Assembly: GCA_919901565.1 (NCBI GenBank)
Contig: CAKKPE010000062.1
Location: forward strand, 1-37,201
Direction: 5' to 3'
From: a bacterium
GTDB lineage: Bacteria; CG2-30-53-67
DNA length: 37,201 bases
Part shown: one piece after another, positions 1,264 through 25,168 of the stretch
Position numbering within the stretch: the stretch's first letter is position 1
Layout: each line of letters opens with the position of its first letter
The notes under the pieces: model-generated
Databases searched by the model: none
Seen by the model: only the letters and a program-made list of their open reading frames with translations
What the model was told of the DNA's origin: nothing
Made by a program: the position numbers and the translations under genes

Positions 1264-2097
1264 ATGAACAAAAAGAGAGTTTTTCAGATTATTTTTATTA
1301 CCCTGGTGATACTCTTCATGGTTGACATTATTCTTAAAATATTAAACAGCCGTCTTCAAACAGAGAAAACGCATGATACTGCAGGTAAAAATGAATTTTC
1401 CCTGGAAAAAGAGGCTAAACCCTATTCGGCCTATGCCAAAATCGCCGAACGAAACCTCTTCCAGGGAACAGCCATAGCGCAGATTGCCGAAAACAACTCC
1501 GATAACTCCCTGGACCATCCAACAACCGATTTAAAATTAACCCTAAAGGGGACTGTAGTCAGCAACAAGGAACATTCCTTTGCCATTATCGAAGACGCAA
1601 ATCTCAAGATGCAGAATCTTTACCATATCAATGACAGCATCGGAAGCGGTGTAACCTTGAGCAATATTTATGAAGACCGTATAGTCATCAACCGCAACGG
1701 GCACAAGGAACTGCTGCTGATGTTCCAGGAAGACAATAAGGATACAAAAAAGGACACCCGGCCCATCACCCGTGCCGAACCCCCTCAGGTCATCCCGCAG
1801 CAGGAGATTCAGCAAGCGGCCAGTGATCTTAAATCTCTCATGAGAGATATCAGGATCATCCCCCATTTCACTTCCGGCAAGCGAGACGGTTTCACCGTGA
1901 CCTATGTTCGTGAAGGAAGCCGCATGTCGGAGGTTGGCCTTCAGAAGAATGACATCATAAAGTCAATCAACGGGACCCCTTCTGAAGACTTTCAAAACAT
2001 CTTTGAAATTTTCAACAAGTATTCGGATTCCACAACACTTAATCTGGAGGTGGATAGAAACAACCAGATCCTGACCTTCAATTATACGGTCGAGTAA
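1264..2097 (+). CDS. gspC: Type II secretion system inner-membrane protein GspC
   Basis: 277 residues. A short cytoplasmic N-terminus is followed by one membrane helix (about residues 7-27), then a homology region starting near AKIAERNLFQG (about 57-67) that in this family binds the N0 domain of the secretin, and a C-terminal PDZ domain (about 195-277, with GSRMSEVGLQKNDIIKSING). GspC links the inner-membrane platform to the outer-membrane secretin and helps choose substrates. It is the first gene of the operon, 26 bases upstream of gspD, and an AGGCTCAGGA-type ribosome site precedes ATG 1264. Length and domain order are normal for the family. Confidence 0.93.
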   Translation: MNKKRVFQIIFITLVILFMVDIILKILNSRLQTEKTHDTAGKNEFSLEKEAKPYSAYAKIAERNLFQGTAIAQIAENNSDNSLDHPTTDLKLTLKGTVVSNKEHSFAIIEDANLKMQNLYHINDSIGSGVTLSNIYEDRIVINRNGHKELLLMFQEDNKDTKKDTRPITRAEPPQVIPQQEIQQAASDLKSLMRDIRIIPHFTSGKRDGFTVTYVREGSRMSEVGLQKNDIIKSINGTPSEDFQNIFEIFNKYSDSTTLNLEVDRNNQILTFNYTVE

Positions 2098-2123
2098 CAT
2101 AATCTGAAACTCTGGAGCACAGG

Positions 2124-4592
2124 ATGAAAAAACATCAAACCATGTATACCTCTTGCTTGATCCTGTTGGCATTGTCTCTCTTCATACCCCTCTCTTTCGC
2201 CTCGGCTCAGCAGGTTCAAGGATCACCGCCTGCTGTACAGCCGGCACCGCCTGGGCCGGCCCCTGCCGTACAGAGAACTCCGGAATCACCGCCTGCCGTG
2301 CCGACTGCACCGTCATCCATTCCTGCGCTGCAGCCTGCACCTAAAAACGCTCCTGCCGTGCAAAGATCGACCGTAACTCCTCCCGGCGTACAGCCGGAAC
2401 TTGGGGTCGTACCTGCAGCACAGCAGACTCCGGGATCACCTCCCCCCCTGCCCCAGAAGGATGAATTGATCACCATGAACTTTGAGGATGCGGACATCCG
2501 TATCCTGATCAAGTTCATTAGTGAACTGATACAAAAAAACTTCCTTATAGATGAATCTGTTAAAGGCAAGGTCACCATTATATCCCCGGAAAAGATCACC
2601 GTGAATGAGGCCTACAGGGTTTTTGAGTCCATCCTGGAGATCAGGGGATACACCCTGGTGTCTGCTGGGAAAGTGATCAAGATCGTCCCGAGTCCTGAAG
2701 CCAAACAGCGGGGGATCGAGACTGTCATAGGGAAAACCCCTATCCTTTCAGAACGCACTGACGAATTCGTCACACGGATCTCACGACTTGAATATGTCAA
2801 CGCCGACGATCTGGCGGCCCTCATCCGTCCACTCTTCTCGAAAGACGGCTATCTGGTCTCATACAAGCCGACCAATACGCTGATCATGACCGACCTGAAT
2901 TCCAACCTCTACCGCATCCTTAAGATCATCAACGAACTGGATGTCAAGGGATATCATGCAGAACTCTACGTCATCCCCATCAAGAACGCTTCAGTCAAAA
3001 CCATGACCGATCATTTAAACGACATCCTCGGGCAGGGAGGCTCCACTTCGGCAGGAAAATCTCCTGCCGTAAGAACTGGCGGGCGGGTACCATCTTCACC
3101 GACTACGGTCTCCGGAGTCTCATCCGAGATTAAGATCATCGCTGACGAACGGACCAACTCTCTGATCGTCCTCGCCACAAAAAATGATTACGATAACATC
3201 GTCGATCTTGTCCGGAAGCTGGACGTGCCGTCCCCTGAGGGAAAGGGGCGGGTCAATATCTATTATCTCCAGAATGCCGTAGCCGAGGAGACCGTCGCAG
3301 TCCTGAATGAATTCATATCCGGAATCAAAGCGGAAAAAGAAAAGGGCGCAACGGGAAAGGGAACGGCAGAGAGAATACCAACCCAGACGGATATCAGGAT
3401 CGTTGCCGACAAGGCCACTAACGCACTGATCATCAACGCCGATCCCGATGATTTTGAGCAGATCAAGTCGGTCATTGAAAAGCTGGATATCCCGAGATCC
3501 CAGGTCCTGATCGAGGCCTTGATTATGGAAGTCCGCGGAAGCGATTCTTATAACCTCGGCGTGGAGTGGGAGACCTTTGGAGGCACGATCGGTACCGATG
3601 ATTCCATCGACCGTCTGGGTTTCGGCGGTTCGCTTCCACAGGGCACCCTTCTTCCTACAATAGGCTCTCTCAATGAAGGAACCATCCCCTCATCCGTTAC
3701 CGGGTTTAACCTTGGGGTTTTCGGAAACTTTATTGAATTCAACGGGCACACCTTCCCTTCTATCTCAGCGCTGATCACCGCCGTGGCCACCCGTTCCGAC
3801 ACAAACATCATCGCCACACCCCAGATCCTGACCATGGACAATCAGGAGGCGGAGATCCAGGTCGGCGAGAACCGCCCCTTCCTGACCCAGGCCCGTACCG
3901 GGCAGCAAGGTGTCAACGATGTATTCCAGACCTTTGAGTTCAAGGACGTGGGAGTAACGCTCAAGGTCACGCCCCATATCAGCCAGAACCGTTTCGTCCG
4001 GCTTGAGCTCTCTCAAGAGGTCTCCAACGTGGATGCCGCAGCCACGGCCGGGACCGGGGCTACAGCACCGGTGACCACCAAGCGGTCCGCCAAGACCACT
4101 GTTGTGATCAAAGACAACCATACCATCGTCATCGGAGGTCTCATCCAGGACGATATAAATGATACCAGTTCCAAGGTCCCCTGTCTGGGTGATTTGCCGC
4201 TGATTAAACATCTTTTCCGTTCCACTACGAACAAGAATAACAAAACGAATCTGATGATCTTTCTGACCCCTCATATTATCACCAACCCTATCGAGGCAGC
4301 GAGACTCTCTGAAAAGAAACATCAGGAACTTGAGTCCAACAAGGAGTACAAGACCCAGAAACCGGTATTTAATTTTAACGGCCCCCCTGAGAATCCGGAC
4401 ACAGACAAATCCACGGAAACCGGGATCAGTCCCTCATCAGGAGGAGAAACCGAGGCCGTTCCTTCAACCCCTCAGAAAGAGGATCTCAATTCAACAGTCC
4501 CGCCGGAGCCGGCGGATCCTCCGGTTCAAAACGGTCAGGGGAATGAAAACAGCATGCCGGAGGCACCCTCAAAAACGGAAGAAAAACCATGA
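2124..4592 (+). CDS. gspD: Type II secretion system secretin GspD
   Basis: 822 residues. The signal peptide (1-28, ending FASA) is followed by an unusual proline/alanine/glutamine-rich segment (about 31-111) made of degenerate units such as PPAVQPAP and APAVQR. The N0 domain starts near ITMNFEDADIRILIKF (about 116); N1-N3 ring domains follow (about 210-440), and the C-terminal secretin barrel runs from about 460 (QVLIEALIMEV) to about 715 (LMIFLTPHIIT). A further 100-residue Pro/Glu/Ser-rich tail ends the protein. Secretins form the outer-membrane gate of the T2SS. No lipobox is present and no pilotin gene is seen nearby, so targeting to the outer membrane is unexplained here. The stop overlaps the gspE start (ATGA). 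Confidence 0.96.
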   Translation: MKKHQTMYTSCLILLALSLFIPLSFASAQQVQGSPPAVQPAPPGPAPAVQRTPESPPAVPTAPSSIPALQPAPKNAPAVQRSTVTPPGVQPELGVVPAAQQTPGSPPPLPQKDELITMNFEDADIRILIKFISELIQKNFLIDESVKGKVTIISPEKITVNEAYRVFESILEIRGYTLVSAGKVIKIVPSPEAKQRGIETVIGKTPILSERTDEFVTRISRLEYVNADDLAALIRPLFSKDGYLVSYKPTNTLIMTDLNSNLYRILKIINELDVKGYHAELYVIPIKNASVKTMTDHLNDILGQGGSTSAGKSPAVRTGGRVPSSPTTVSGVSSEIKIIADERTNSLIVLATKNDYDNIVDLVRKLDVPSPEGKGRVNIYYLQNAVAEETVAVLNEFISGIKAEKEKGATGKGTAERIPTQTDIRIVADKATNALIINADPDDFEQIKSVIEKLDIPRSQVLIEALIMEVRGSDSYNLGVEWETFGGTIGTDDSIDRLGFGGSLPQGTLLPTIGSLNEGTIPSSVTGFNLGVFGNFIEFNGHTFPSISALITAVATRSDTNIIATPQILTMDNQEAEIQVGENRPFLTQARTGQQGVNDVFQTFEFKDVGVTLKVTPHISQNRFVRLELSQEVSNVDAAATAGTGATAPVTTKRSAKTTVVIKDNHTIVIGGLIQDDINDTSSKVPCLGDLPLIKHLFRSTTNKNNKTNLMIFLTPHIITNPIEAARLSEKKHQELESNKEYKTQKPVFNFNGPPENPDTDKSTETGISPSSGGETEAVPSTPQKEDLNSTVPPEPADPPVQNGQGNENSMPEAPSKTEEKP

Positions 4593-6133
4593 ACCCGGAC
4601 AACCTGAACATCGATATGCCTGTCCTCCAGGATATCCCGGAACCAAGATTGAGCGAAGAGACCCTGCAGAAGATCCCTCGCAGCTATCTCAAACGTTTTG
4701 TCCTCTTCCCTTTTTTTGAGGATGATCATGAAATCCGTGTGGCCATCTCTGATCCGGCAAACATCGTGCCTCTGGATGATCTTGGAAAACTGCTGCAAAA
4801 GAACATAGAACCCTATCTGGCCCCGGAGAACCAGATCAATCAAAAAATCAACCTGTACTTCGGAAGCGCCACCGATACAGCTGAGAGTGTAATCGACGAC
4901 CTTTCCGGCCAGGAATATGAAACCATCGCAGAGGAACTGGAGGAAGTTCAGGACCTGCTGGATGCCGAAACCGAGGCGCCCATTATCAAGCTCATGAACC
5001 TCATCCTCTACCAGGCCGTAGAATCCCGTGCCAGCGACATCCATATCGAACCCTACGAAAAGGAGAGGCTGGTCCGGTACCGGATCGACGGCGTCCTCTA
5101 TGAGAGAGTTCAGCCTCCAAGACGTTTTCTGTCCGCCCTGATCTCAAGAATCAAGATCATGGCCAACCTGAATATCGCCGAGAAGCGCCTCCCGCATGAC
5201 GGGCGGATCAGGATCAAGATTGCCAACAAGGAGGTCGATATCCGCGTCTCCATAATCCCCACAGCGTTCGGTGAACGGGTGGTGCTCCGCCTCCTGGACA
5301 AAAACGCCACGATCTATGATCTGGAAGATATCGGATTTTCCGAACAGATATACCAGCAAATTTCCAGGATGATCCGGAAGAGCCACGGGATCATCCTGGT
5401 TACGGGCCCGACAGGAAGCGGAAAGAGCACGACTCTTTATGCCGCACTGAACAAGATCAATTCCCCTGACCAGAATATTCTCACCATCGAGGATCCCATC
5501 GAATACCAGATAAAAGGCATCGGCCAGATGCAGGTCAATCCCAAGATTGACCTGACCTTCGCCCGAGGTCTGCGCTCCATCCTCCGGCAGGACCCTGACG
5601 TTATCATGATCGGTGAGATACGAGACCTGGAGACCGCTGAGATCGCCATACAGGCCTCGCTTACAGGCCATTTGGTCTTCTCCACTTTGCATACCAACGA
5701 CTCTGCCGGCGCCATGACCCGGCTGGTTGACATGGGAATCGAACCATTTCTGGTCTCATCATCTCTGCTTGGTGTTCTGGCACAGCGCCTGGTTCGGGTC
5801 ATCTGCCCCAAATGCAAGATTTCCTACAAGCCGGCACAAGCTGAACTCGATGAGCTCGGCTTGGACACCGCAAAGGTCAAAAACCCTGTGTTTTATCACG
5901 GCAAGGGATGCGAATCCTGCTTTCAAACCGGCTATTACGGCCGGTCTGGAATTTATGAGATGCTTTTAACCTCGGAAAAAATCACCAAACTGATTCTCCA
6001 GAACGTCGATTCCAATATGATCAGGGAAGCTTCAGTTCAGGATGGAATGAGAACACTCCGTCAGGACGGTGCCAGTAAAGTTCTAAAGGGCATCACCACC
6101 ATAGAAGAGGTCCTGCGCGTGACGCAGGAATAA
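4589..6133 (+). CDS. gspE: Type II secretion ATPase GspE
   Basis: 514 residues. The N-terminal GspE/PilB N-domain (about 15-90), which contacts GspL, is followed by the RecA-like ATPase. Visible motifs are Walker A GPTGSGKS (273-280), the Asp-box region around residues 150-240, Walker B DPDVIMIGEIRD (335-346) and the His-box STLHTND. The zinc-binding module is intact: Cys406-x2-Cys409 and Cys441-x2-Cys444. The hexamer powers pseudopilus assembly from the cytoplasmic face. It starts in a 4-base ATGA overlap with gspD. It is separated from gspF by 161 bases, the largest gap within the operon, which contains a repeat element. Confidence 0.97.
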   Translation: MNPDNLNIDMPVLQDIPEPRLSEETLQKIPRSYLKRFVLFPFFEDDHEIRVAISDPANIVPLDDLGKLLQKNIEPYLAPENQINQKINLYFGSATDTAESVIDDLSGQEYETIAEELEEVQDLLDAETEAPIIKLMNLILYQAVESRASDIHIEPYEKERLVRYRIDGVLYERVQPPRRFLSALISRIKIMANLNIAEKRLPHDGRIRIKIANKEVDIRVSIIPTAFGERVVLRLLDKNATIYDLEDIGFSEQIYQQISRMIRKSHGIILVTGPTGSGKSTTLYAALNKINSPDQNILTIEDPIEYQIKGIGQMQVNPKIDLTFARGLRSILRQDPDVIMIGEIRDLETAEIAIQASLTGHLVFSTLHTNDSAGAMTRLVDMGIEPFLVSSSLLGVLAQRLVRVICPKCKISYKPAQAELDELGLDTAKVKNPVFYHGKGCESCFQTGYYGRSGIYEMLLTSEKITKLILQNVDSNMIREASVQDGMRTLRQDGASKVLKGITTIEEVLRVTQE

Positions 6134-6157
6134 TAAACTCTTGAAAGTTCATAAAGA

Positions 6158-6283
6158 GACGGCACAGTAAAAAGCTCCGGATGCAAGGCGCGCGAATCCT
6201 GAGGAATGAGGCGTACTGATATGTACGCTGCAATGACGAAGGATGAAGCGTAACGTAGCAGACGGATTTTTTACGAAGCCGTC
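6158..6283 (+). repeat. Dispersed 126-bp palindromic element, copy 1 (gspE-gspF gap)
   Basis: A 126-bp unit bounded by GACGGC and GCCGTC. Its ends form imperfect terminal inverted repeats (GACGGCACAGTAAAAAG against GACGGCTTCGTAAAAAA). In the middle lies a small hairpin, CGTAC-TGATAT-GTACG. A near-identical 126-bp copy in the opposite orientation is at 31698-31823 and a diverged copy at 30785-30907. It has no ORF of note and looks like a non-autonomous, MITE- or REP-like element. Confidence 0.85.
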
Positions 6284-6294
6284 AAGAATAAAAT

Positions 6295-7512
6295 ATGCCA
6301 GTTTACGAATACAAGGCCCTTGACAGGAAAGGCAAGGCCATTACCGGGATCGTGGATGCAGACTCGTCCCAGGAGGCCAGAGGGAAGTTGCGCGAACAAG
6401 AGGTCTACATCACCGAACTGAGCGAGTCATCCTCTGTCCATGTGAAAGACCGATCCTCCAGCATTACCCTTTTTACCCGCATCAGCCCCATAGAGGTTTC
6501 CATCGTCATCCGGCAATTATCCACCCTTCTGAATGCCGGTATCCCTCTCGTGGAGGCCCTTTCAGCCATCATCGACCAGATGGACAACAAGGGGCTTGAA
6601 AAAATGCTTTCCCAGGTCCGTGAATCCGTGCGCGAAGGAAGAAGTTTTGCCGACAGCCTTTCCCCCCACACCCGGGCTTTTTCAACACTCATGATCAATA
6701 TGATCCGATCCGGAGAAAGCAGCGGATCTTTGGAAATCGTCCTTCTTCGTCTGGCTGATTTCCTTGAACAGCAGGTCATGACAAAACGCAAGGTCCAGTC
6801 CGCATTGATCTATCCTGCGGTTATTGTCTCAATCGCGTTCCTCATCCTTCTCTTTCTGATGACCTACGTGGTACCCTCGGTGACCAAGATCTTCGCCGAC
6901 ATGAAGCAGACGCTCCCTCTTCCAACCGCCGTTTTGATCGCTATCAGCAGCTTCATCCGCTCATACTGGTGGCTGTTTCTCCTGCTTCTTGTGGCAGCTT
7001 TTACGGGAATCAAGGCCTATATCAAGACCCAGGAAGGGAGGATTCATTTTGACCGCTTCAAGCTGAAGATGCCCATCTTCGGATCCATTTACCGCAAGAT
7101 CGCCATTTCCAGGTTCTCCAGAACACTCGGGACCCTTCTGGAAAACGGTGTCCCGCTCTTGAGCTCCCTGGATATCGTGAAAAATGTGGTCGGCAACAAG
7201 ATCCTGGAAATGACCATCGAGGAAGCCCGTACACATATTGGAGAAGGCTCTACGATCCACGAGCCGTTGAGACGGAGCGGCGTGTTCCCGCCCATCCTGA
7301 TCCATATGATCCATGTCGGGGAAAAAAGCGGCACCCTCGAGCAGATGCTGAACAAGGTAGCGGATATTACGGACAACGAGATCGACACGACCATCAACAC
7401 CCTGACCTCATTGCTGGAACCGCTCATGATCGTGGGGCTGGCACTGGTCGTAGGGTTTATCGTGATCTCTATCCTGCTGCCTATTTTCGAGATCAACCAA
7501 TTGATCCATTAG
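6295..7512 (+). CDS. gspF: Type II secretion inner-membrane platform protein GspF
   Basis: 405 residues, normal length. Two copies of the GspF/PilC cytoplasmic helical domain (about 70-190 and 270-390) alternate with membrane helices at about 170-195, 220-240 and 375-398. The protein forms the rotating platform on which GspE acts. Start ATG 6295 lies only 11 bases after the end of the upstream repeat element. The intervening AAGAATAAAAT has no good Shine-Dalgarno sequence, unlike the strong sites of gspG, gspH and gspJ, so translation may be weak or the element may supply the initiation region. A later start is unlikely because MPVYEYKALD is the conserved family N-terminus. Confidence 0.95.
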   Translation: MPVYEYKALDRKGKAITGIVDADSSQEARGKLREQEVYITELSESSSVHVKDRSSSITLFTRISPIEVSIVIRQLSTLLNAGIPLVEALSAIIDQMDNKGLEKMLSQVRESVREGRSFADSLSPHTRAFSTLMINMIRSGESSGSLEIVLLRLADFLEQQVMTKRKVQSALIYPAVIVSIAFLILLFLMTYVVPSVTKIFADMKQTLPLPTAVLIAISSFIRSYWWLFLLLLVAAFTGIKAYIKTQEGRIHFDRFKLKMPIFGSIYRKIAISRFSRTLGTLLENGVPLLSSLDIVKNVVGNKILEMTIEEARTHIGEGSTIHEPLRRSGVFPPILIHMIHVGEKSGTLEQMLNKVADITDNEIDTTINTLTSLLEPLMIVGLALVVGFIVISILLPIFEINQLIH

Positions 7513-7527
7513 GCAAGGAGATTATGT

Positions 7528-7962
7528 ATGGTCAATAAAAAAGGATTCACCCTGATCGAACTGCTTGTGGTTCTGGTCATTATCTCACTCCTGGTCTCCA
7601 TCATCGGGCCGAAACTCTTCGGCCGGACCGATGAAGCCCGCCGTACAGCAGCGACTGCACAGATGCGAAACATCGACAGCGCCCTGGCACTGTACGAGAG
7701 AGACAACGGGACATTCCCCACAACGGAACAGGGTCTTCAGGCCCTTGTAGAGAAACCGACCATAGAACCCGTCCCCAAGAACTGGCACGAGGGTGGGTAT
7801 CTGGATAAGAACAAGGTACCACCCGACCCCTGGCACAACCCCTATGTCTACATCTCTCCAGGCGTACACAACAAAGAATATGACATCAAGTCCTATGGAG
7901 CCGACGGCGAGGAAGGGGGCGAAGGGAAATATGCGGATATCGAGAGCTGGAACATCGAATAA
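7528..7962 (+). CDS. gspG: Major pseudopilin GspG
   Basis: 144 residues. The prepilin signal is short: cleavage after Gly6 (MVNKKG), then Phe7 and the FTLIE motif with the conserved Glu5 of the mature chain. A hydrophobic assembly helix follows, and the C-terminal globular part shows the GspG hallmarks YERDNGTFPTTEQGL and DPWHNPYVY, the latter leading into the calcium-site region. A GGAG ribosome site sits 7 bases before ATG 7528. GspG builds the bulk of the pseudopilus. Processing needs a GspO/PilD peptidase, which is not in this window. Confidence 0.97.
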   Translation: MVNKKGFTLIELLVVLVIISLLVSIIGPKLFGRTDEARRTAATAQMRNIDSALALYERDNGTFPTTEQGLQALVEKPTIEPVPKNWHEGGYLDKNKVPPDPWHNPYVYISPGVHNKEYDIKSYGADGEEGGEGKYADIESWNIE

Positions 7963-8533
7963 GGTCCGATCCGGCCGGCTATGGAACCGGAATCCTGACA
8001 GCGGGTTCACCCTCATCGAACTGACCGTTGTCCTGCTGATCCTTTCGGTCATTATAGGGTTGGTGCTCCCGAAAATCGGGAACGCCATTTATTCCAGCGA
8101 TCTTAAGCATTCCATCCGGCAGATCCGGGCCATCCTGAATGTGGCCAGGAGCAACGCCACCATGGAGCGCATTCCGCGCCGGATTGCCTGCGATATACCC
8201 AAAGGAGAGATCCGGATCGAGCGGGAAATAAGCGAGGATGGAGACGGCCAGTCCATAATCCACTATGAAAAAGACAACTCGATCCTGATTCAAACCTATA
8301 AATTTCCAAAGGGGATCCGGATAGAGGATGTGATTACAGAGACCGGACAGAAGGAACTGGACGGTGTGGCCTATCTCCGGATCAGCACAAACGGCATGAT
8401 TGCCGGCAACATCATCCATCTCCAGAAGGGGGATGAGAAATACACCCTCTTTATCAACCCCCTGACCGGAAACACCACAATCGAAGAGGGATATATCGAG
8501 GAATACAAGGTTGAGGCAAATAACAGACCATAA
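7931..8533 (+). CDS. gspH: Minor pseudopilin GspH
   Basis: 200 residues from ATG 7931, chosen because AAGGGA lies just upstream and because the frame contains few other plausible starts before the prepilin motif; the open frame itself reaches back to 7793 inside gspG. The predicted leader is 25 residues (cleavage Gly25/Phe26), longer than usual, followed by FTLIELTVVLLIL. The globular domain that follows fits the GspH/FimT family. It overlaps the end of gspG by 32 bases. GspH is a minor pseudopilin near the tip of the pseudopilus. Confidence 0.85.
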   Translation: MRISRAGTSNKVRSGRLWNRNPDSGFTLIELTVVLLILSVIIGLVLPKIGNAIYSSDLKHSIRQIRAILNVARSNATMERIPRRIACDIPKGEIRIEREISEDGDGQSIIHYEKDNSILIQTYKFPKGIRIEDVITETGQKELDGVAYLRISTNGMIAGNIIHLQKGDEKYTLFINPLTGNTTIEEGYIEEYKVEANNRP

Positions 8534-8915
8534 AACATCCGTTCAGGGGTTTACCCTGTTAGAGGTGCTCTTCGCCGTGGCGATCATCGGAATTTCCATG
8601 GTTACACTGGTCGGACTGGAGTTTAAAACCATCCGGCTGCAGCAGATCTCAAACCGGATCACCGTGGCAGCGCTCCTTGCTGAAGAGAAACTGAATGAAA
8701 AGATGGCTGAGATCAGCGCAACCCCTTCACCTTCTCTCTACAATGACGAAGGAGACTTCGAAGACGACGATGAGGATTTCCATTGGGAATATTCCCTTGC
8801 CACCACACCTGCCGCCACTCTCTACCGGATTGACCTCACAGTCTATTGGGACCCGGAAAACAAAGAGGAAAGTTCGGTGACGCTGAGCAGCTTCGTGGCT
8901 GCGGGAGGACCATGA
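8511..8915 (+). CDS. gspI: Minor pseudopilin GspI
   Basis: 134 residues beginning at a TTG codon (8511) with GAGGA 8 bases upstream; no ATG or GTG is available in frame before the prepilin motif. Cleavage is expected after Gly13, followed by FTLLEVLFAVAII. Length and the LAEEKLNEKMAE segment after the helix suit GspI. It overlaps gspH by 23 bases and gspJ by 4 (ATGA). GspI nucleates the GspI-J-K tip complex. Confidence 0.87.
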   Translation: MRQITDHKTSVQGFTLLEVLFAVAIIGISMVTLVGLEFKTIRLQQISNRITVAALLAEEKLNEKMAEISATPSPSLYNDEGDFEDDDEDFHWEYSLATTPAATLYRIDLTVYWDPENKEESSVTLSSFVAAGGP

Positions 8916-9598
8916 GAACCCGTCTTTCCCAGCAAGGCCTGACTCTTCTGGAGATCCTCGTCGCCATGTTTATCTTCTCCATCATTCTCGGCGTGGTTTA
9001 TTCCACCTTTTTCGGGTCGTCAAAAACCGCTTCTCTTATCGAATCCAACGAGGATGCCTACCAGACGGCCCGTTCATTTCTGGGCATGATTTCCCTGGAA
9101 CTCAGGGCCCTTTACTACGACTCTTCCAGCGGCCTGGGCCTGTCCGGAGTCAACAAGGAAACCGATGGAGACGCCGTGGATGAGATCTATTTTATCAGCA
9201 CGTCTTATCAGCGGACAAGCCCTGAAGCCCGGGAAGGTGAAATCGCAGAGATCGGCTATTTTTTTGACGTGGACCCAATCAGCGGGAAGAAACGCCTGAT
9301 CAGGAGCGTGGATTCCAGCGTGGACTCGGACATCAAGGATGGAGGTACGCTCATGCTGCTCACCGAACAGGTCAAAAGTCTGGATATCAAGTATTACAAG
9401 AAGGACACCAAGGAATGGCTTGATGAATGGCAGGCTCAGTCTCAACCCCAGTCCCAGGCATCGCCGCAGCCGCAGCAACAGCAGCAGCAACAGCAGCCGC
9501 AGCTGCCAGACGAAATCCGGATTGAACTCTCGGTGGTGGATGACCATGAGCATGAGACGAAGTTTCATAAAACCATTCAGCCTGTGCTGATGCGGTAA
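8912..9598 (+). CDS. gspJ: Minor pseudopilin GspJ with Gln-rich insert
   Basis: 228 residues from ATG 8912 (GGGAGGA ribosome site at 8903-8909). The prepilin leader is MRTRLSQQG with cleavage before LTLLEILVAMF. The globular domain fits GspJ (QTARSFLGMISLELRALYY, LLTEQVKSLDIKYY). Within the C-terminal part lies a Gln/Pro/Ser-rich low-complexity insert (about residues 174-199, bases 9431-9507) encoded by CAG/CAA runs, before a last conserved strand (LPDEIRIELSVVD). Such a stretch is not a usual part of GspJ and probably forms a flexible loop. Confidence 0.9.
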   Translation: MRTRLSQQGLTLLEILVAMFIFSIILGVVYSTFFGSSKTASLIESNEDAYQTARSFLGMISLELRALYYDSSSGLGLSGVNKETDGDAVDEIYFISTSYQRTSPEAREGEIAEIGYFFDVDPISGKKRLIRSVDSSVDSDIKDGGTLMLLTEQVKSLDIKYYKKDTKEWLDEWQAQSQPQSQASPQPQQQQQQQQPQLPDEIRIELSVVDDHEHETKFHKTIQPVLMR

Positions 9599-9603
9599 AC
9601 CCT

Positions 9604-10587
9604 ATGAAGCATGCTGAATATCAAGTCCAGAGAGAGGACGGCATTGCCCTGGTCCTGGTGCTCCTTGTAATCGGAGCGCTTTCGGTCATCATTCTGGATT
9701 TGAATTACACGACCCGCGTCAACCTCCACCTTGCCGAAAACTTCCTGGATGATACCAGGGCATACTTCCTGGCCAGGGGGGCCGTAGAGGCGGCCATATA
9801 CTGGATACAAAAAGATGAAGAAGATAGCCCTGATTACGATGCGATTTGTGATACCGGCGACCCCGCATGCGAGAACGCATGGTCCCTGGACAACCCCGGC
9901 ATGGAGGTGGGTGAATCCTTTGTGGAGCTCAAGATCCGGGATGAAGACGGAAAGGTCTGGGTCAACGACACAAAAAACCTGTTCAAGAACACCCCTATAA
10001 CAAATCTCCCGCCATTCCTCCAACTGCTGAAGGAACAGCTCAACCTTGCAGATGAGGTGTTGGATTCAATTCAGGACTGGATAGATACCAATCAGGATGT
10101 CTTCAGATATGGCGCCGAATCGGATCATTACCAGTCCCTGGACCCTCCCTACGACCCCCGTAACGGACCGATGTTGGACCTAAGCGAACTATTGATGGTA
10201 AAAGGCATAGACAATAAGATATATTACGGGAAAAATGACGATTATCCCTTGGGCCTCAACGATATCTTCACGGTTTACAGCGGCGGGAAAATCAATGTCA
10301 ATACGGCCCCGTCCGAAGTCCTGAGCGCCCTGGGGCAAGGAATCGACGGAGTGACTATTGCCGCAGACCGTGGAGCGGCGCCTTTTAAAACAAAGGAGGA
10401 ATTTGTAAAGTACCTCGGGGATCAGTTCCCCGGGGCATCCAGCGTGCCGCAGGAGCTTTGGGACGTGAAATCGGCCTTTTTTTCCGCTTACGTCACGGTC
10501 CGGGTCCATAAGGTTACGAAATTCGTTCATGCGGTCTTGCAAAGAAAGAATAAAAATGTTAGCATCGTTTATTGGCGGGAAGGGTAA
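9604..10587 (+). CDS. gspK: Minor pseudopilin GspK
   Basis: 327 residues. The prepilin-like N-terminus ends at Gly13 and is followed by IALVLVLLVIGALS; position +5 is not Glu, which is typical for GspK and fits its place at the very tip of the pseudopilus. The large globular domain contains the GspK alpha-domain with DEVLDSIQDWIDTNQD and the motif GGKINVNTAPSEVLSAL. It begins 5 bases after gspJ and has no strong ribosome site, so translational coupling to gspJ is likely. Confidence 0.93.
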   Translation: MKHAEYQVQREDGIALVLVLLVIGALSVIILDLNYTTRVNLHLAENFLDDTRAYFLARGAVEAAIYWIQKDEEDSPDYDAICDTGDPACENAWSLDNPGMEVGESFVELKIRDEDGKVWVNDTKNLFKNTPITNLPPFLQLLKEQLNLADEVLDSIQDWIDTNQDVFRYGAESDHYQSLDPPYDPRNGPMLDLSELLMVKGIDNKIYYGKNDDYPLGLNDIFTVYSGGKINVNTAPSEVLSALGQGIDGVTIAADRGAAPFKTKEEFVKYLGDQFPGASSVPQELWDVKSAFFSAYVTVRVHKVTKFVHAVLQRKNKNVSIVYWREG

Positions 10588-10611
10588 GAAAAAGCGAATT
10601 AAAAGGTGATT

Positions 10612-12156
10612 ATGGCAAGGATCATCACAGGCATTGAAATCAATAAATACGGCATCCAGGCTGTAGAAATATCGGTTCAACGAAAGTCGGTCCGGGTCCT
10701 CCGTTTCATCGAGGAGGTCATGGACGGTGACTTTCTCACACCGGATGCGCTCTCGCTTTTCTTCTCGGAACATCAGATCCAGAGAGAAAGCGTGGTCACG
10801 TCCGTGCCTGGGGATATGCTGATCACCAGGCAGGTCACGGTTCCCTTCAGGGATCGGTCCAGAATCAATAAGGTCATTCTTTACGAGCTTGAACCACTGG
10901 TTCCATTCCCGATCCAGGAACTTGAAGTCTGTTACCGGATTCTCAATCAGGGAAAAGGTAAAAGCGACCTTCTGGTCTATGCCCTCCCCCGAAGCATACT
11001 GGATCTCCGCAGCAGACTCTTCGAAGAGGCCGCAATCCCACTGAACATGATCACAGTCTCTTCACTGGCCTCATCCAATACACTCTTTCAGACGCACATG
11101 ATTCAAGAGGGACGATCCTGCATGCACCTTCACGTCTCCTCAAATTACAGCATTCTTTCCGTCTATGAGTCCGGTATTCTGGGGCACATTCAAAGGCTCA
11201 AATGGGGACTTGATGCTTTATTCACCAGGTTACAGGAGAAAACGGGGATTGATCCCTTGACCCTGTCCGAAAGGCTCCGGGAGGTCAACCCGCTTGAAAC
11301 CACCGAACTCATCAATATCCTGAAGGACGAGCCATTACCCATCGCTCAACAGGCCAGAAAGAGTCTTCAAACTTATCTCCTTAGATCCAAGGGCAAGGCT
11401 CCGGCAGTGGTTTATGTGACAGGAGACCGGCCAGGCATTCATCTGCTCCCCTCCCTCCTTGAAAAGGATCTGTCCATAAGGACGGAGATCCCGGATCCCC
11501 TGGCAGCCTTGCCGCATGACATCGGCAGAAGAGATCACCTGAGCGGAATCTACGCACCTTTGGGAATGGCTTTTATGGAAGGCGGGAAGGATGCCCTCTC
11601 CTGTTCCTTCAGAAGAAAGAAATTTTCTCTGATCTCCAGGATCATAGAGTCTAAAAAAGAACTCCGCTACGCAATAGCCATGTTAAGCTTTGTGATGTTC
11701 CTTTTCATCACAGACTATCTCATCGGGATTCAAACCAAGGAATACTATTACACCCAAATAAAAAAGGAAATGCTCAATATCCTGCAGGGAACATTCCCCG
11801 ATGTAAAAAACGTTGTGGACGAACTGGAACAGATGAAGCTCCATATCAAGGAAGTCGAGAAGCAGAATGATATTTTCAGGAGTGTTTTTGGGGAAAAGCC
11901 TTCAGCCCTGGATGTCCTCAACGAAATAAGTACCCTGATCCCCTCCGACATGGATCTCGCGATCTCGGATTTGACCATTGATGAGAAGTCTGTCCGCTTC
12001 GTCGGATGGACCGATTCCTTCAATACGGTAAACCGGATCGAACAGGAGCTGAAAAAGTCGCCGATCTTCGAACAGGTCAATGTGAGCAATGCAAAGGTTG
12101 AAAATGACAAAAGCCGTGTAAACTTCCAGATAAAGATCGTATTCAAAGGAGCATGA
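10612..12156 (+). CDS. gspL: Type II secretion protein GspL (PilM/PilN-like)
   Basis: 514 residues from ATG 10612, preferred over GTG 10606 because AAAAGG lies just upstream. The N-terminal actin-like cytoplasmic half (about 1-340) begins ITGIEINKYGIQAVEIS and resembles PilM/GspL; one membrane helix follows (about 350-370, AIAMLSFVMFLFITDYLIGI) and then a periplasmic region with a coiled coil and a ferredoxin-like PilN/GspL domain (about 420-514). It recruits GspE to the membrane and pairs with GspM. Its stop overlaps the ATG of a small ORF (ATGA). Confidence 0.88.
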   Translation: MARIITGIEINKYGIQAVEISVQRKSVRVLRFIEEVMDGDFLTPDALSLFFSEHQIQRESVVTSVPGDMLITRQVTVPFRDRSRINKVILYELEPLVPFPIQELEVCYRILNQGKGKSDLLVYALPRSILDLRSRLFEEAAIPLNMITVSSLASSNTLFQTHMIQEGRSCMHLHVSSNYSILSVYESGILGHIQRLKWGLDALFTRLQEKTGIDPLTLSERLREVNPLETTELINILKDEPLPIAQQARKSLQTYLLRSKGKAPAVVYVTGDRPGIHLLPSLLEKDLSIRTEIPDPLAALPHDIGRRDHLSGIYAPLGMAFMEGGKDALSCSFRRKKFSLISRIIESKKELRYAIAMLSFVMFLFITDYLIGIQTKEYYYTQIKKEMLNILQGTFPDVKNVVDELEQMKLHIKEVEKQNDIFRSVFGEKPSALDVLNEISTLIPSDMDLAISDLTIDEKSVRFVGWTDSFNTVNRIEQELKKSPIFEQVNVSNAKVENDKSRVNFQIKIVFKGA

Positions 12157-12281
12157 TTTTCAAGCCTCATGCAGACTGTTCCAGACTCATTGATGACGTG
12201 GCGCGCAAAGAAGCGGCGGGAATTTCTCATTTCAGCATGAATGATAACCGGGAGAAACCATTTGGCGGCAAGAGAAAATGA
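12153..12281 (+). CDS. Candidate 42-residue small protein between gspL and the ParA gene
   Basis: An ATG at 12153 overlaps the gspL stop (ATGA), and the frame ends in TGA 12279-12281, which overlaps the ParA-like ATG (ATGA). The ORF therefore fills the whole gap with 4-base overlaps at both ends, as expected for translational coupling. AAAGGAG lies immediately upstream, but only one base from the ATG, which is too close to be ideal. The product starts MIFKPHADCSRL and ends basic (KPFGGKRK). It has no membrane segment and resembles no family I know. A chance ORF of this length is possible, so it is a candidate only. Confidence 0.4.
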   Translation: MIFKPHADCSRLIDDVARKEAAGISHFSMNDNREKPFGGKRK

Positions 12282-13039
12282 GATCTATTTCCATTATCAA
12301 CCAGAAGGGAGGGATCGGCAAAACCACTACGGCCATCAATCTCTCTGCGTGCCTGGCGGAATTGGGGCAGCGTGTACTGCTGATCGACATGGACTCCCAG
12401 GCCAATGCAAGCATCGGGCTGAATGTCGATCCCGAGGATCTGGACAAGACGGTCTATGACCTCTTTATGGATGAAAAGACCAGGGTCAGCGATGTCCTGT
12501 GCCGGACCATGATAGACAATCTGGACCTGCTGCCGGCTCACATGGATCTTGCCGGCTGTGAAGTCCTGTTGGCCGGCAACGCTTCCCGGCCTTATATACT
12601 GAGAAACGCTCTCAAGGAGATCAACGGGAATTACGACTTTGTCCTGATCGACTGCCCCCCGTCTCTCGGGGTCCTGAGTTTAAATTCGCTTTTGGCGTCG
12701 AGCGACATCATTATCCCGACGGAGGCCAAATATTACGCAGTCAAAGGATTCGACATGCTGAACAAGATGATCAAGACCATTGATCAACAGCTTGGACATA
12801 AGATTAATATCATGGGTGTTCTGATCACCATGTTTGAAAAGAGGACCTCTTTACACAGGATCCTGTACAATGAGATCAAACAGACTTTCGGAGACAAACT
12901 CTTTGCCACACTGATCCCGAAAAACATCACTTTGAGCGAAGCGGAACTATACCGGGAACCGGTTATCAAATATGCGGCCAACTCCCCAGGGGCACTGAAC
13001 TATCGACACCTTGCCATCGAGGTACTGTTTCATGACTGA
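12278..13039 (+). CDS. ParA/Soj-like deviant Walker A ATPase inside the T2SS operon
   Basis: 253 residues. The deviant Walker A motif KGGIGKTT (10-17, signature Lys10 and P-loop Lys15), Walker A' LLIDMDSQANAS (34-45) and Walker B FVLIDCPPSLG (121-131) are all intact. The C-terminal half (about 180-215) is basic and matches Soj-type ParA, so non-specific DNA binding and ATP-dependent dimerisation are likely. ParA relatives segregate DNA or place protein complexes (for example TadZ, PomZ, FlhG-type systems). No ParB gene or parS-like array is nearby. It sits between gspL and gspM, coupled to both by overlaps, which argues for a role in placing or counting the secretion machine. That role is inference. 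Confidence 0.9.
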   Translation: MRSISIINQKGGIGKTTTAINLSACLAELGQRVLLIDMDSQANASIGLNVDPEDLDKTVYDLFMDEKTRVSDVLCRTMIDNLDLLPAHMDLAGCEVLLAGNASRPYILRNALKEINGNYDFVLIDCPPSLGVLSLNSLLASSDIIIPTEAKYYAVKGFDMLNKMIKTIDQQLGHKINIMGVLITMFEKRTSLHRILYNEIKQTFGDKLFATLIPKNITLSEAELYREPVIKYAANSPGALNYRHLAIEVLFHD

Positions 13040-14012
13040 TAAAGAAGACGCTCTGCGGAAAAAAGCAAAACAGAATTTGGATCCCAAAGGGTGGGAAGCC
13101 CTCCTGGAAGGCGCCCCCAGAGTTGACGAACAGGAAACCCTGGACCTTTCAGAGACAGCCCCGCAAAAGGATCCGGCCCCTGAGGAAAAACATATCTTTA
13201 AAGTCACCGATGAATCCGGGGACGTCTCGGAACAGGTCACATCCCGTGAACGGATTCCTGATCAAGCAGCCAAGGCGCCCCATTCAATCGAAGCAATGCC
13301 CGGCAATCCGGAGGAAACGTCTCCTGACGGGTCAGACTCCATGCAGGAACCCATCCCCCCTGATGCAGGGCCGTCCGCACTTCAAGGCCCTGAGGTCCGT
13401 GAAAAAATATCCATATACGGCCGGATACTGGACCGGGTCCGGAAACAGCCTCCGATCCAGCGCTTTCTCCTTTACTATCAGGGATTGAGCACTCGTGAGC
13501 AGCGGGTTCTCCTGCTGGGGTGCATCTTTCTTTCCGTCCTGGCGCTTTACACCCTGGTTATCAGTCCCATGTTCCAGAAAAATGAACTCATCAATATCAA
13601 GATCCAGAAAAAGAAAGCCGAACTCTCCGAAATGAACCGTCTCCAATCCTCAGTTGTGCAGGACCGTGGAGGCATGGAACGGATTAAAAAAATCATTGAA
13701 CAGCGCGGGCAGGGATTCTCCGTCTTCTCTTACCTGGAACAGCTTGCTACAAAAGCCGAGGTTAAGGACAAAATCCTTTACATAAGACCACAGCGTGAAA
13801 CCCCTGTCGGACAATTCCTGGAATCTCTGGCTGAGATCAAACTCAACAATATCAACCTTGAGGAGCTGACCCGGTTCCTCTATCAAATCGAGAGTTCGGA
13901 AGACTTACTGTATATCAAGAACCTGAAGATGACCACAGGTAAAGACCAGAATGCACTCGAAGCGACCCTTTCCGTGGGGACTCTGGTCCAGGGCGGTGAA
14001 AGTAGAAAATAA
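13032..14012 (+). CDS. gspM: GspM/PilO-like T2SS protein with long cytoplasmic extension
   Basis: 326 residues from ATG 13032 (GAGG at 13019-13022), overlapping the ParA-like gene by 8 bases. Residues 1 to about 150 are hydrophilic, acidic and Pro-rich, apart from a basic cluster near the N-terminus (RKKAK, residues 9-13), and are probably disordered. A membrane helix follows at about 157-180 (VLLLGCIFLSVLALYTLVI), then a coiled coil (about 185-225) and a small periplasmic domain of the GspM/PilO kind. Typical GspM proteins are about 160 residues, so the extension nearly doubles the length. Position after gspL supports GspM. The tail could contact the preceding ParA-like ATPase, since ParA partners often use a short basic N-terminal peptide. 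Confidence 0.85.
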   Translation: MTDKEDALRKKAKQNLDPKGWEALLEGAPRVDEQETLDLSETAPQKDPAPEEKHIFKVTDESGDVSEQVTSRERIPDQAAKAPHSIEAMPGNPEETSPDGSDSMQEPIPPDAGPSALQGPEVREKISIYGRILDRVRKQPPIQRFLLYYQGLSTREQRVLLLGCIFLSVLALYTLVISPMFQKNELINIKIQKKKAELSEMNRLQSSVVQDRGGMERIKKIIEQRGQGFSVFSYLEQLATKAEVKDKILYIRPQRETPVGQFLESLAEIKLNNINLEELTRFLYQIESSEDLLYIKNLKMTTGKDQNALEATLSVGTLVQGGESRK

Positions 14013-14082: not shown

Positions 14083-14353
14083 AAATCAAAGATAAAGAAT
14101 CAAAAATCAAAATCACAGATTAAAAATCAAATAAATATTCAAGACGGGTTCTGAAATTGGGTCTTTAGAGACTCGTGTTTATTGACGCGCGATAAAAGGC
14201 GAAGACCTCTCGATTCATTCGTCATCGGGTACTTCGACGTGTTGCCCGTTTGGGATCTCATGTTTTGAATCCAACGCAGGCTTCCCAAAAGAAGCTTAAC
14301 AATTTTTATATTTTGATTTGTCATTTTGATTTTTTATCTTTGATTTTTGATTC
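14083..14353. repeat. AT-rich inverted-repeat element (about 270 bp)
   Basis: Two AT-rich arms (14083-14139 and 14301-14353) are imperfect inverted copies built of AATCAAA units; the minus reading of the right arm contains AAAATGACAAATCAAAATAT. The GC-richer core (14140-14300) encodes only a 61-codon minus-strand ORF (14139-14324) with no recognisable domain, which I do not call a gene. The arrangement resembles a decayed or non-autonomous mobile element. The rest of the 541-base gap 14013-14553 holds nothing recognisable apart from the terminator at 14497-14526. Confidence 0.55.
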
Positions 14354-14553: not shown

Positions 14554-17500
14554 TCAGTTCCGGTCCTGAGAACGCCTCCTTAATTTCATCATGGCAATGA
14601 CAAACACCGGCAGGAGCATCAACGCCATCTCACCCATGCCGTTCGACAGTGAGATTGGATTCGATGCAAGACTGCATCCTCCTCCTCCACTGCTTCCACC
14701 ACCACTGGTTACCGGTGTAGATACCGGAGTGTCCGCTGGGGTATCAGCCGGAGTATCCACAGAAGATGCAGTGACCACCTGGAACGGTGAGAGGCTGGTC
14801 ACGTCTGCGGTGATCGTCTTGTTCACGTCATCTATGGTCCGGTTTGTATCCTCGGCAACCCACTCTCCGCCGGTAAAATGGTAGATATGCAGGTCTGTGG
14901 TATCAGTGACCGAATCATTGTACTGGAGTGATACCGTCACAGCGGCGCCGGTTGTGATCGAATCCCCTGCAGGAAGCGAGATATCGTACAGGGCGCTCTC
15001 TGCCGTGGCATTGGAAGGGAGCGGGTCCGTAGTCTCAGAAAGGATTGACCTTGCTGATACGGAACTGGCATATACGCTATTCCCGCTGACTGTGGAATCG
15101 TCCTTCTGCATGGTCACAGTCGATACACCGCTACCGCTGGCGTCGCTAATGTCACCTGCCTCAAGGAATACCTGGGACTTGTCTCCCTGTCCCATACTGA
15201 CACTGCCGCCGAGCAGGGTATTTACCGTACCCTGGTTCCATGCCGTGGCATTCACGTCATAGGATAATGACGTGCTGACCTCGGTGTTGTTCGTTCCGTA
15301 ATGCGCCGTAAACGACAAGATAAAGATGGTATCGCCCGCGTCCGGCGTATACGTGGCACTGATCTGCGTTTTATCTGCACTCAATGTTGACGACAGAGAT
15401 CCTCCTCCCTGACTGAGAGAAAGGATATTGGATGCGGACGCATCATTTAAAATACTCGTGCTGAAAATACCGATGGAGAAAGTCCCATCGTCGTTCTTAA
15501 TTGCACGGGCCGTGATAATCGGCGCGTTGTCTCCGATCACGGCATTGTACGTATCGCCAGCCTGGACAGGATCAGGCATCACATGGATATCACCGGCACC
15601 CTTGTCGCCGTCATTGACAAAGACCAGCATATAGGATTTCCCCGCCTCGAGGCCGCTGACGGAATAAGCCGAAACCTCGCGTGAAGCCTCATTGGACGTC
15701 AGGGTCCCGAATATCAGCACTTCCAGATCCGCAGAGACCGCAACAACTTCTGAAACCTCGGAGGTCGTGGGATAGGTCCCGTCGTCCATGACCACTGTAC
15801 CCGAAACCGTACCGCCTTCGACCATCTCCAGAGGTGTGGAGATGACGTTGCTCCCTTCTGCAATCACGATGCCTTTGACGATCTTCGTGGTATATCCCCT
15901 GCTGAAGATCTTGAGGTTGTACGTACCCGGAACGATCCCGCTGACACTGAAGGCTGACGTGTCACTGTCACTCGGTTCCCCTATGGTCTCGATACCAGCC
16001 ATGGGATCCGAATAGACCTCACCCTGCTTCTGGAGCAGGACAAAGGGCGCCGGCATGTCTGCATCATCCATGAAGGGGAGCGTCCACGGCGAACTTCCGG
16101 TCTTATGGATGGTCCCGGAGAGCGTCGCGTTGGCTGCCGGAAGCGCAAAGTCCAAACCGGTCAGTCCTGAGGATGTCACTTCCACGTTCTTTTTCACCTC
16201 ACCCCAGGTCACAGGGATGAACTGCATGAAATCCGGTCTTGAGCCGGCAACCACGGTGTAGTATTTGACGTTGGGATCCACACCATAAATCGTGTATATG
16301 CCTTTTGAGTCCGTAGTGGCAAACGCCGACGTGGCCCCGTCCTTCGAATCCACAGGCCTGGCCTCAACATCGATGTTCCCCAAGAGAGCTCCCGTCGAGG
16401 CAGACGTTACCGTACCGCTGATGGAAACGCCTTCACGGAGTTCCATGGTTCCGATGTCCACGCTCGCCCCAGAGGTTTCAGGGACCACCACACCGGCCTT
16501 GCGGATACCGATGTAGTTCTTGGCGCCGTTCTGTTTCATGCCGTTTTCAGCTTGCACGGTCACTACGTAGGTACCGGCAGGAAGGTTGGCCAGGGTGAAC
16601 GCCCCGGTATAGACTCCGCCCTGATCCTCGAACCGGCTTGTGGACCATGGGTCCTGTCTGGTTTCTCTCCAGCTCCCCTCAACCCACGGATAGGCTTCAC
16701 AGCGGACCATGATGCCGTCACTGGGTGTCACGGCTTGGCCGTTGCCGGCATTGATAAGTGTTCCGGTAATGTTTGCGCCTTTCTTCAATTCCAGGTTTGC
16801 ACCGGCCACATCACTGCCGTTCACGGAAATGTTCTGGTAGGCGACGGTGTAGTTGTTCGTCCAGGCCTGGATCACATAGTCCCCGTCCATGACATGTTCC
16901 AGGGTAAAGGAATAAGTTTTGGTCCCGTTGAAATCCTTGACAAAGACCGGCATGTGCCGTCCCATCCCGGCCTTTCTGGGATGCCGGAGTTCCAGTTCAC
17001 AAACATAATCCCAATCGTTTCCTGTCTGAACCTCAGGAAGGGTCAGTGTCCCGCTCACCGAATACCCGTCAGAGAGGACGAAATCGACCCCTGACTTGGT
17101 CTGCCCGGCCGAGACCGTAACCATCTGGCCGTCGGCCGCGATGTCGGGTTCAAAAGCAGCCTGCATCATCTGGGCACTGGGGTCGAAAATCTGCACGGTC
17201 AGTTCCGTGGGAGGTGAGACACTGTACGCCCCTGACCCCAAACCGGAGATGGCGTAGGTCCCGTCAGGCATGATCGGTCCCATGAACATGGTGGAACCAC
17301 CCATCATGGCCGTCTTCATGGGTATGGCCGTAACCATCTTGCCGACCAGATCCGTGTTGAAATTAACAGTGCCGCTGTAGCCCGGCTCCAAGGAAACGGT
17401 ACCCGTTATGACACCGCCGGTGCTTAATGTAACGTTCTGACCTGATGTGGTCTCGCCATTGGTCACCGGGACCCTGATTATTTCGGTCCCGAAGTTTCCG

Positions 17501-23269: not shown

Positions 23270-25168
23270 TCACGAGTTCTGTGACGGCATCAGGTCCACC
23301 AGCACGGCCTGGATGGAGCGGGTCCCATTGTATTCATTGTACCGGAGGTGATAGAGCAGATCCAAGGGAGTGTCTTCACTCAGAGAATTCAAAAGTTCCT
23401 TCATCCTGAATCCGATGACGGTCATGGGCCCCTGCCGAGACTGGATCTGGAATCGCAGGTGCTCCTCCCCCACCAACCGGAGGTTTCTGATCCGCACGTT
23501 CCGTGAAACAAAGATCGGTTCTGGATTCCCCATGCCAAAAGGTTTTAGCTTCTCCAGATCCTGGAGCAGACCGTCGGAGATGTGATGGGTGTCTATGATT
23601 CCATCCACCTTGATCGTAGGGATCAGATCCTCTGCGTTTAAATGGTCTTCTGCATACCGGTTGATCCTCTCCCTGAAGCGTTGAATCCGGTCCCAATCGA
23701 TGGTCAGGCCCGCGGCGAGCCTGTGGCCGCCGAATCCCAGAAGTTCCTCCCGGCATGCATGGAGCGCCTCGTACAGGGAGAACCCCGGAATGCTTCTCCC
23801 CGATCCCGTGCCTATCCCGTTCTTCATGGTAATCAGGATCGTTGGCCGGTAAAATCGCTCAACGATCCGTGAAGCCACAATGCCGATAACCCCGGCATGC
23901 CAGTCTTCGGCATGGGCCACAATCACCTTGTCGTCCCTCCCCTCCTTTTCTATCCTCTCCAATACCTGTCCTAAGATCTCTTTCTCAATCTCCTGTCTCT
24001 TCTGGTTCTCCTGATTCAGGATCAGGGCTGCCGCTTCCACTTCCCTCTCATCAGAAGAGACCAGGAGCCTGAGCGCGGTCCCGGCATCCCCGATCCGTCC
24101 TGCTGCGTTGATCCTCGGGGCCAGGACAAACCCGACCTGGCCCGGAGTCACCATGGAGCCGTTCAATCCCGAGACCCGCATCAAGGCACGGATACCCTTG
24201 TTTTTGCTCCGTGCAATCTTTTCAAGCCCGTGTCTGACCAGAATCCGGTTTTCACCGGTGAGGGGAGCCACATCCCCGATGGTTCCGATGGCCACAAGAT
24301 CCAGATATTCACTGAGATTTGGAAGTTCCCGCTCACTAACATGGTACCCTGAGCCTGTCGAAGGGGAGCCTGTCGAAGGGGAGCCTGTCGAAGGGGAGCC
24401 TGTCGAAGGGGAGCCTGCCGAAGGGGAGCCTGCCGAAGGGGAGCCTGCCGAAGGACGAAGACGCGCACGGACAGCAACTATGAGTGCAAAAGCCAGTCCC
24501 ACACCTGCAAGAATGGTAAAGTCTCCTTCCAGGCTACTGGACAGATTAGAAGAAGAGTCAGACAAACGTGATGAGGAGTCATCAATGGTTGATCGTCCGG
24601 ATACTTTTGGATTTATGATGTACTTTGTCTCGGGCAGTTCAACCGGTGGTTCATGGTGGTCCGTGATGATGACTTCCATGCCCAGAGCGCGTGCAAGGGC
24701 AACTTCATCATTTGCCGAGATGCCATTGTCCACCGTGACCAGAAGATCCGTACCCGCTTTTCTGATCTCCCGGATAGCCTCGGCGTGAAGACCATAGCCG
24801 TGTTCCATTCGGTTCGGAATGAAATAAAAAACATCAGCGCCAAAACGCTCAAGCAGCAGAAACATCAGGGATGTGGCTGTAACACCATCCACATCATAAT
24901 CCCCGTAAATGCAAATCTTCTCTTTGTTCCTGATGGCATCACAGATCCGGTCTGCCGCAGGAATGATGCCTGGAATTTTCGTGGGGTTGCTGAGGTGTTT
25001 GAGGCTGGGTTCAAGAAAGATATCACCCTGCTCTTTGATGCGGATCCCCCGGAGGAACAAAACTCCTGCGACAGCCGGTTCGATGGAGAGGGCCTCGGAG
25101 AGTTCCCTCACCACCCGGTCATCCCGTTCCTGGACCAGCCAACGTTTTCCTGTTAATGAGATAGGCAT
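23270..25168 (-). CDS. recJ: Single-strand-specific exonuclease RecJ with low-complexity inserts
   Basis: 632 residues; usual RecJ proteins are about 560-580. The DHH phosphoesterase core is intact: DYDVDG (90-95), VDNG (146-149) and DHH (170-172), followed by the DHHA1 domain ([11 protein letters not shown]) and the C-terminal OB-like domain. Two inserts lie between the DHH part and the connecting helix: a Ser-rich stretch (about 190-214) and a Pro-Ser-Thr/Ala-Gly-Ser array (about 239-273) encoded by a 15-bp tandem repeat. RecJ degrades 5' single-stranded ends in recombination and repair in the cytoplasm. The inserts sit in a surface loop region and keep the frame. The ribosome site before ATG 25168 is weak. 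Confidence 0.95.
24351..24455. repeat. Seven-copy 15-bp tandem repeat inside recJ
   Basis: Seven head-to-tail units of GAGCCTGTCGAAGGG occupy 24351-24455; units 1-4 carry TGTCG and units 5-7 TGCCG, and the last ends in GGA. The unit is a multiple of three, so the recJ frame is kept. The flanking CCCT plus first unit resembles the widespread dispersed sequence CCTTCGACAGGCTCAGG read on the other strand. Confidence 0.97.

Follow-up and report, generated by a model that had tools for sequence, protein, structure and literature searches.

A ParA-type ATPase encoded between gspL and gspM as a candidate positioning factor for type II secretion machines

Cells use ParA ATPases to place or partition DNA and large complexes, and placing of the ParA type is known for plasmids, chromosomes, carboxysomes, chemoreceptors, pili and flagella. 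In the 37,201-nucleotide stretch of bacterial DNA analysed here (the window), a ParA-type ATPase is encoded within a type II secretion system (T2SS) operon, between gspL and gspM. On balance we think it probable that this protein is a dedicated ATPase with GspM as its partner and activator, in a ParA-type system whose cargo, to be positioned or partitioned, is the inner-membrane platform of the T2SS (GspL and GspM with GspE, GspF and GspC). More tentatively, GspM may take the role of ParB by means of a ParB-like peptide and form, with the operon-encoded ParA, a system that places or shares T2SS machines across the nucleoid, a class of cargo so far undescribed for ParA. A search of the literature found no paper that joins ParA to the T2SS or that puts GspM in the role of ParB.

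The T2SS operon of the window is complete, occupies positions 1264-14012 of the + strand and runs from gspC to gspK, followed by gspL, the ParA gene and gspM; all the core genes by which a T2SS is recognised, gspC to gspM, are in this one operon. The block of gspC, D, E, F, G, H, I, J and K (1264..10587, +; Pfam and NCBIfam matches) is syntenic in relatives. (Note that C, D, E, F, G, I, J, K and M were called via Pfam or NCBIfam and L as the PilM-PilN type, and that gspH was assigned from its N-methylation motif and its position in the operon.) The upstream neighbour of the ParA gene is gspL (10606..12156, +; likely start ATG 10612), which matches Pfam PilM_2 and PilN and is syntenic in six genomes. 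An intact Soj-like ATPase had been predicted at this place, and the ParA gene (12278..13039, +) does encode a complete protein of 253 aa (Pfam AAA_31, E 5e-61) with its catalytic residues intact. It is followed by gspM (13032..14012, +; 326 aa; Pfam T2SSM, E 8e-9, residues 144-212), whose product carries a cytoplasmic N-terminal extension of about 150 aa. The original prediction also had the ParA gene overlapping both of its neighbours, which is correct on one side only: it overlaps gspM by 8 nt (gspM ATG at 13032, ParA stop at 13037-13039), an overlap that is missing in two of the six relatives, but is separated from gspL by a gap of 121 nt (12157..12277, +) with no conserved gene. (A 42-codon open reading frame in this gap, at 12153-12281 (+) and with an ATGA overlap at each end, is probably no gene; its sequence is unconserved within the genus and absent from other genera.) The lack of ParB and parS that had been predicted was borne out, in that the window has no parS-like site at up to three mismatches, the gene next to the ParA gene is gspM rather than parB, and the ParB of the host cell adjoins Soj on a separate contig (L001). 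Besides the T2SS ParA, the genome encodes this Soj and a ParA of 385 aa.

The T2SS ParA has the signature Lys (Lys10), the Walker A Lys (Lys15), the catalytic Asp (Asp39) and the Walker B motif of deviant Walker A ATPases of the ParA/Soj type, and K10, K15, D37, D39, N43 and IDCPP are all kept in six of six T2SS ParAs. Among solved structures it is closest to Myxococcus ParA (8RAY) and to Thermus Soj, with E values from 1e-56 to 1e-53. By inspection, we found no MinD-like, membrane-targeting amphipathic helix at the C-terminus, which reads YRHLAIEVLFHD and aligns with the C-terminal helix of Soj with no extension. Moreover, a comparison of the two species in the genus gives the T2SS ParA a dN/dS of 0.08, indicative of strong purifying selection; that of GspL is higher, at 0.14.

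The GspM proteins of the family that carries this ParA are about 315-326 residues long, with about 150 cytoplasmic residues ahead of the membrane segment. Some 34 GspM proteins from other lineages were inspected, and in these about 10-45 aa likely precede that segment, as reckoned from start codons judged by eye. Among the lineages compared, the long extension is restricted to the ParA-bearing family. Its tip, residues 1-29 (13032..13118, +), is near-invariant in an alignment of the six proteins (dN/dS 0.09), with the consensus M-x-D-K-E-[DE]-x-L-R-K-[KQ]-x-K-x-x-L-x-P-K-G-W-E-A-L-L-E-G-x-P, and is predicted with modest confidence (AlphaFold2, pLDDT about 58-69) to form two short helices, at residues 3-14 and 18-25. 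The tip is joined by a variable linker, residues 30-125 (13119..13406, +; dN/dS 0.32), that is predicted to be largely disordered. Within the tip, the segment K19-G-W-E-A-L-L25 (13086..13106, +), invariant in all six proteins, is a putative ParB-like ParA-binding motif. The ParA-binding motif of ParB is L-G-[KR]-G-L-x-A-L-[IL] (PMC12462528), and the 62 distinct ParB motifs that we collected mostly take the form L-G-[KR]-G-[LIFM]-x-[AST]-[LI]-[ILMF]; the PKGWEALL of GspM fits the core of the motif, [KR]-G-hydrophobic-x-A-L-[IL]. When the genome was searched for another copy of this peptide, GspM was the only match.

A comparison of the ParB-binding pocket in the six T2SS ParAs and in 99 Soj proteins indicated that the T2SS ParA retains the hydrophobic floor (Val96, Leu130, Leu135 and Leu172) together with Tyr60, and that the acidic rim is lost. 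In particular, the position of Glu97 (Mx Glu117) is Gln, Leu or Arg in the T2SS ParAs, and Glu151 and Glu156 (Mx Glu176) are each replaced by Lys in six of six, and the mapped rim has a net charge of about -5.1 in the 99 Soj proteins versus about -0.5 in the T2SS ParAs. Re-charging of this kind is as would be expected for an interface that has been re-specified to a partner other than ParB, and a pocket so re-specified would prevent cross-talk between the T2SS ParA and the cell's own Soj and ParB. Because GspM carries an invariant N-terminal peptide that is specific to the family and contains the core of the ParB motif, and because the pocket of the ParA is changed, the case for linking this ParA to the T2SS is far stronger than synteny by itself would make it. 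From the peptide and the altered pocket we therefore infer, on good grounds, that this ParA may set the number or place of T2SS machines, as had been proposed.

In the mechanism that we favour, ParA would be the motor-like ATPase and GspM a ParB-like adaptor, cargo and activator in one. ATP-bound ParA dimers would be held by a matrix. The nucleoid, contacted through a rebuilt basic surface, is the likeliest candidate, and some other scaffold is less probable. Many GspM molecules per machine would make the T2SS a multivalent cargo that could space itself or be shared between daughter cells, such that the platform would be moved, spaced or shared out. The binding of GspM by ParA, the activation, the matrix and the positioning are steps that we infer from sequence.

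The surface through which the T2SS ParA might contact the nucleoid differs from that of Soj. The comparison took as reference the non-specific DNA-binding residues R189 and R218 of Bacillus subtilis Soj and R221 and K233 of Caulobacter crescentus ParA. Arg218 of Bacillus subtilis Soj, like its counterparts R224 in Caulobacter and R238 in Myxococcus, is required for DNA binding (PMC3778016, PMC7229837, PMC12462528). This position is Thr or Ser in six of six T2SS ParAs, and is Arg or Lys in the Soj, 385-aa, chemotaxis-type and plasmid ParAs aligned alongside; the Arg189 position is basic in four of the six but not in the other two, and the equivalent of Caulobacter crescentus R221 is basic in all six. 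Since Arg215 remains basic and Arg226 and Lys231 are newly basic, the T2SS ParAs carry more positive charge on the mapped surface (+4.8 on average) than Soj does (+3.2). Binding of the nucleoid, with the nucleoid as matrix, is plausible but uncertain. The loss of Arg218 and the variability at Arg189, which weaken canonical DNA binding, fit another role, in which the ParA would serve the T2SS in assembly or polarity, as TadZ/CpaE serves Tad pili, BcsQ cellulose synthase and FlhG flagella, and would bind GspM to recruit or license assembly of the platform via the membrane or a polar hub instead of the nucleoid. GspM is already located in the membrane, and the layout of one subunit and one ATPase in an operon is generally known from tad and flagellar loci, both of which would suit such a factor. 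We nonetheless regard this role as unlikely, given that the closest structural matches are to Soj/ParA and not to MinD, TadZ or FlhG, that the Soj-like C-terminus offers no membrane-targeting helix and that the mapped DNA surface is more positive than that of Soj.

Another account would have the GspM extension serve a different purpose, for example the binding of GspE or GspL, with the ParA acting elsewhere and the KGWEALL match being due to chance. The match is indeed partial and was noticed after the fact: D-P replaces the L-G that precedes [KR], Trp occupies the hydrophobic position of the motif in none of the 62 ParB motifs, and against a strict ParB matrix the GspM peptide scores 5.9 bits versus 15.5 for the lowest-scoring real ParB motif. 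However, the pattern [KR]G[LIFMW]xAL[LIMF], which was written post hoc to include Trp once the GspM peptide was known, has three matches outside GspM and ParB in 915,000 background residues, from which the chance of finding the core motif in a 34-residue tail is about 1e-4. Moreover, the charges that serve ParB have been lost from the ParA, and the ParA and the extension share the same six genomes; both are missing from the roughly 39 other genomes with a gspL-gspM pair, including a genome of the sister family (G007). This account therefore strikes us as improbable, and GspM as the partner of the ParA remains the reading we prefer.

The order gspL-ParA-gspM, the wider occurrence of which was to be checked, is found well beyond the genome of the window, in six of six genomes of the family in the set, spread over three genera and with 69-87% identity between the ParAs; its presence in six genomes of three genera is more than would be expected by chance. 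The sister family, which belongs to the same class, has no ParA at this place: in G007 (L160), gspM comes directly after gspL. Among about 38 genomes of other lineages with a readable gspL-gspM pair none has a ParA between the two genes. No T2SS-ParA pair was found in four more phyla, which are small in the genome set and one of which gave zero matches; the set includes only eight genomes of the phylum of the window's organism, and all T2SS-ParA cases come from one family. Thus, present in one family and absent from its sister family and the other lineages, the T2SS ParA is a clade-specific addition and no general part of the T2SS. (In one relative, G004, gspD, which encodes the secretin, is matched twice in tandem within the T2SS operon, at 1661-3610 and 3820-5793 of L128.)

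In a tree of 59 rows the six T2SS ParAs form one clade on a long stem (support 100/100), apart from chromosomal Soj and from the plasmid ParAs tested, which was the outcome that the original prediction called for. The Soj proteins of the same six-genome family sit in a separate Soj clade, and uniting the T2SS ParAs with them is rejected by the AU test (p 0.014). The clade closest to the T2SS ParAs, with weak support (81/76), is that of the 385-aa ParA type, which is found in these genomes and also in other phyla. No ParA of a plasmid collection exceeds about 45% identity to the T2SS ParA; of the three included in the tree, two are Soj-like and fall among the Soj proteins, and the Geobacter plasmid ParA also lies outside the T2SS clade. 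We therefore rejected a plasmid origin on the strength of these identities and placements. That a plasmid or chromosomal Soj copy was recently inserted and has no function in secretion is highly improbable, and already close to refuted, because the Soj-like character of the protein (42-45% identity both to Soj and to ParAs recorded on plasmids or chromids) is outweighed by its own long-stemmed clade, the rejected union with the family's Soj, a dN/dS of 0.08 and its presence in three genera.

At the locus of the 385-aa ParA, the third ParA of this genome (L219, 1594-3714; G000:C107), the gene downstream encodes a MinD-like protein of about 290 aa, not a ParB, that begins MKGRRLGRGLEEIS. This start is a ParB-like ParA-binding motif, parallel to the case of GspM, and the pair of 385-aa ParA and MinD-like neighbour is conserved in relatives (L042, L204, L206).

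The intergenic region after gspM contains an AT-rich inverted repeat with arms of 45 nt (14083-14127 and 14302-14346) that are 80% complementary and lie 174 nt apart. Convergent with gspM is a gene (14554-19461, -) for a protein of 1635 aa with carboxypeptidase-regulatory-like repeats, which adjoins gspM in three of five relatives (G001, G003 and G005) and was not found in those parts of G002 and G004 that were read. The C-terminus of the protein consists of GGGSSGGGGCSLASN, a hydrophobic stretch and LRRRSQDRN, and resembles a CTERM-type sorting tail; the NCBIfam CTERM models gave no match to the protein. Given this tail, the 1635-aa protein may be a T2SS substrate. Further along, a gene that by eye is recJ-like (23270-25168, -) contains an in-frame coding repeat.

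How cells control the place and number of their T2SS machines is largely an open question. If GspM is the partner of the T2SS ParA, one ATPase and one peptide would provide a direct genetic handle on T2SS placement, and part of a machine would have become ParA cargo through the gain of one short tail. The pair would also be a natural example of a re-specified interface between ParA and its partner that is accompanied by a shifted DNA-binding surface.

Like Soj of the ParABS systems (Soj/Spo0J), the T2SS ParA has the ATPase fold, all catalytic residues and the pocket floor of Tyr60, Val96, Leu130, Leu135 and Leu172, and its putative partner bears the [KR]-G-hydrophobic-x-A-L-[IL] motif at the N-terminus of a disordered tail. 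Unlike ParABS, the T2SS locus has neither ParB nor parS, the putative partner belongs to a secretion machine as one of its membrane subunits, the charges of the pocket are changed, the DNA-binding Arg218 is lost and the ParA lies outside the clades of Soj and of the plasmid ParAs tested. According to one survey (PMC10241942), partners of ParA/MinD ATPases have a charged, disordered N-terminus and may themselves be components of the cargo. Like McdA/McdB, PpfA/TlpT, ParC and PomZ/PomX, the T2SS ParA is encoded beside its putative cargo, with a putative partner that has a charged N-terminal peptide and possibly belongs to the cargo itself; unlike in those systems, the proposed cargo is the T2SS, which is not among the cargos in the available part of that survey. 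TadZ/CpaE of Tad pili, FlhG of flagella, BcsQ of cellulose synthase and VirC1 of conjugation are likewise MinD/ParA-family ATPases encoded within operons for envelope machines, but these belong to other subfamilies, whereas the T2SS ParA is of the short canonical Soj type with no membrane helix or extra domain. Finally, the operon shares all its core genes and their usual order with the canonical T2SS (gspC-M), from which it differs in having a ParA between gspL and gspM and a GspM with a cytoplasmic extension of about 150 aa.
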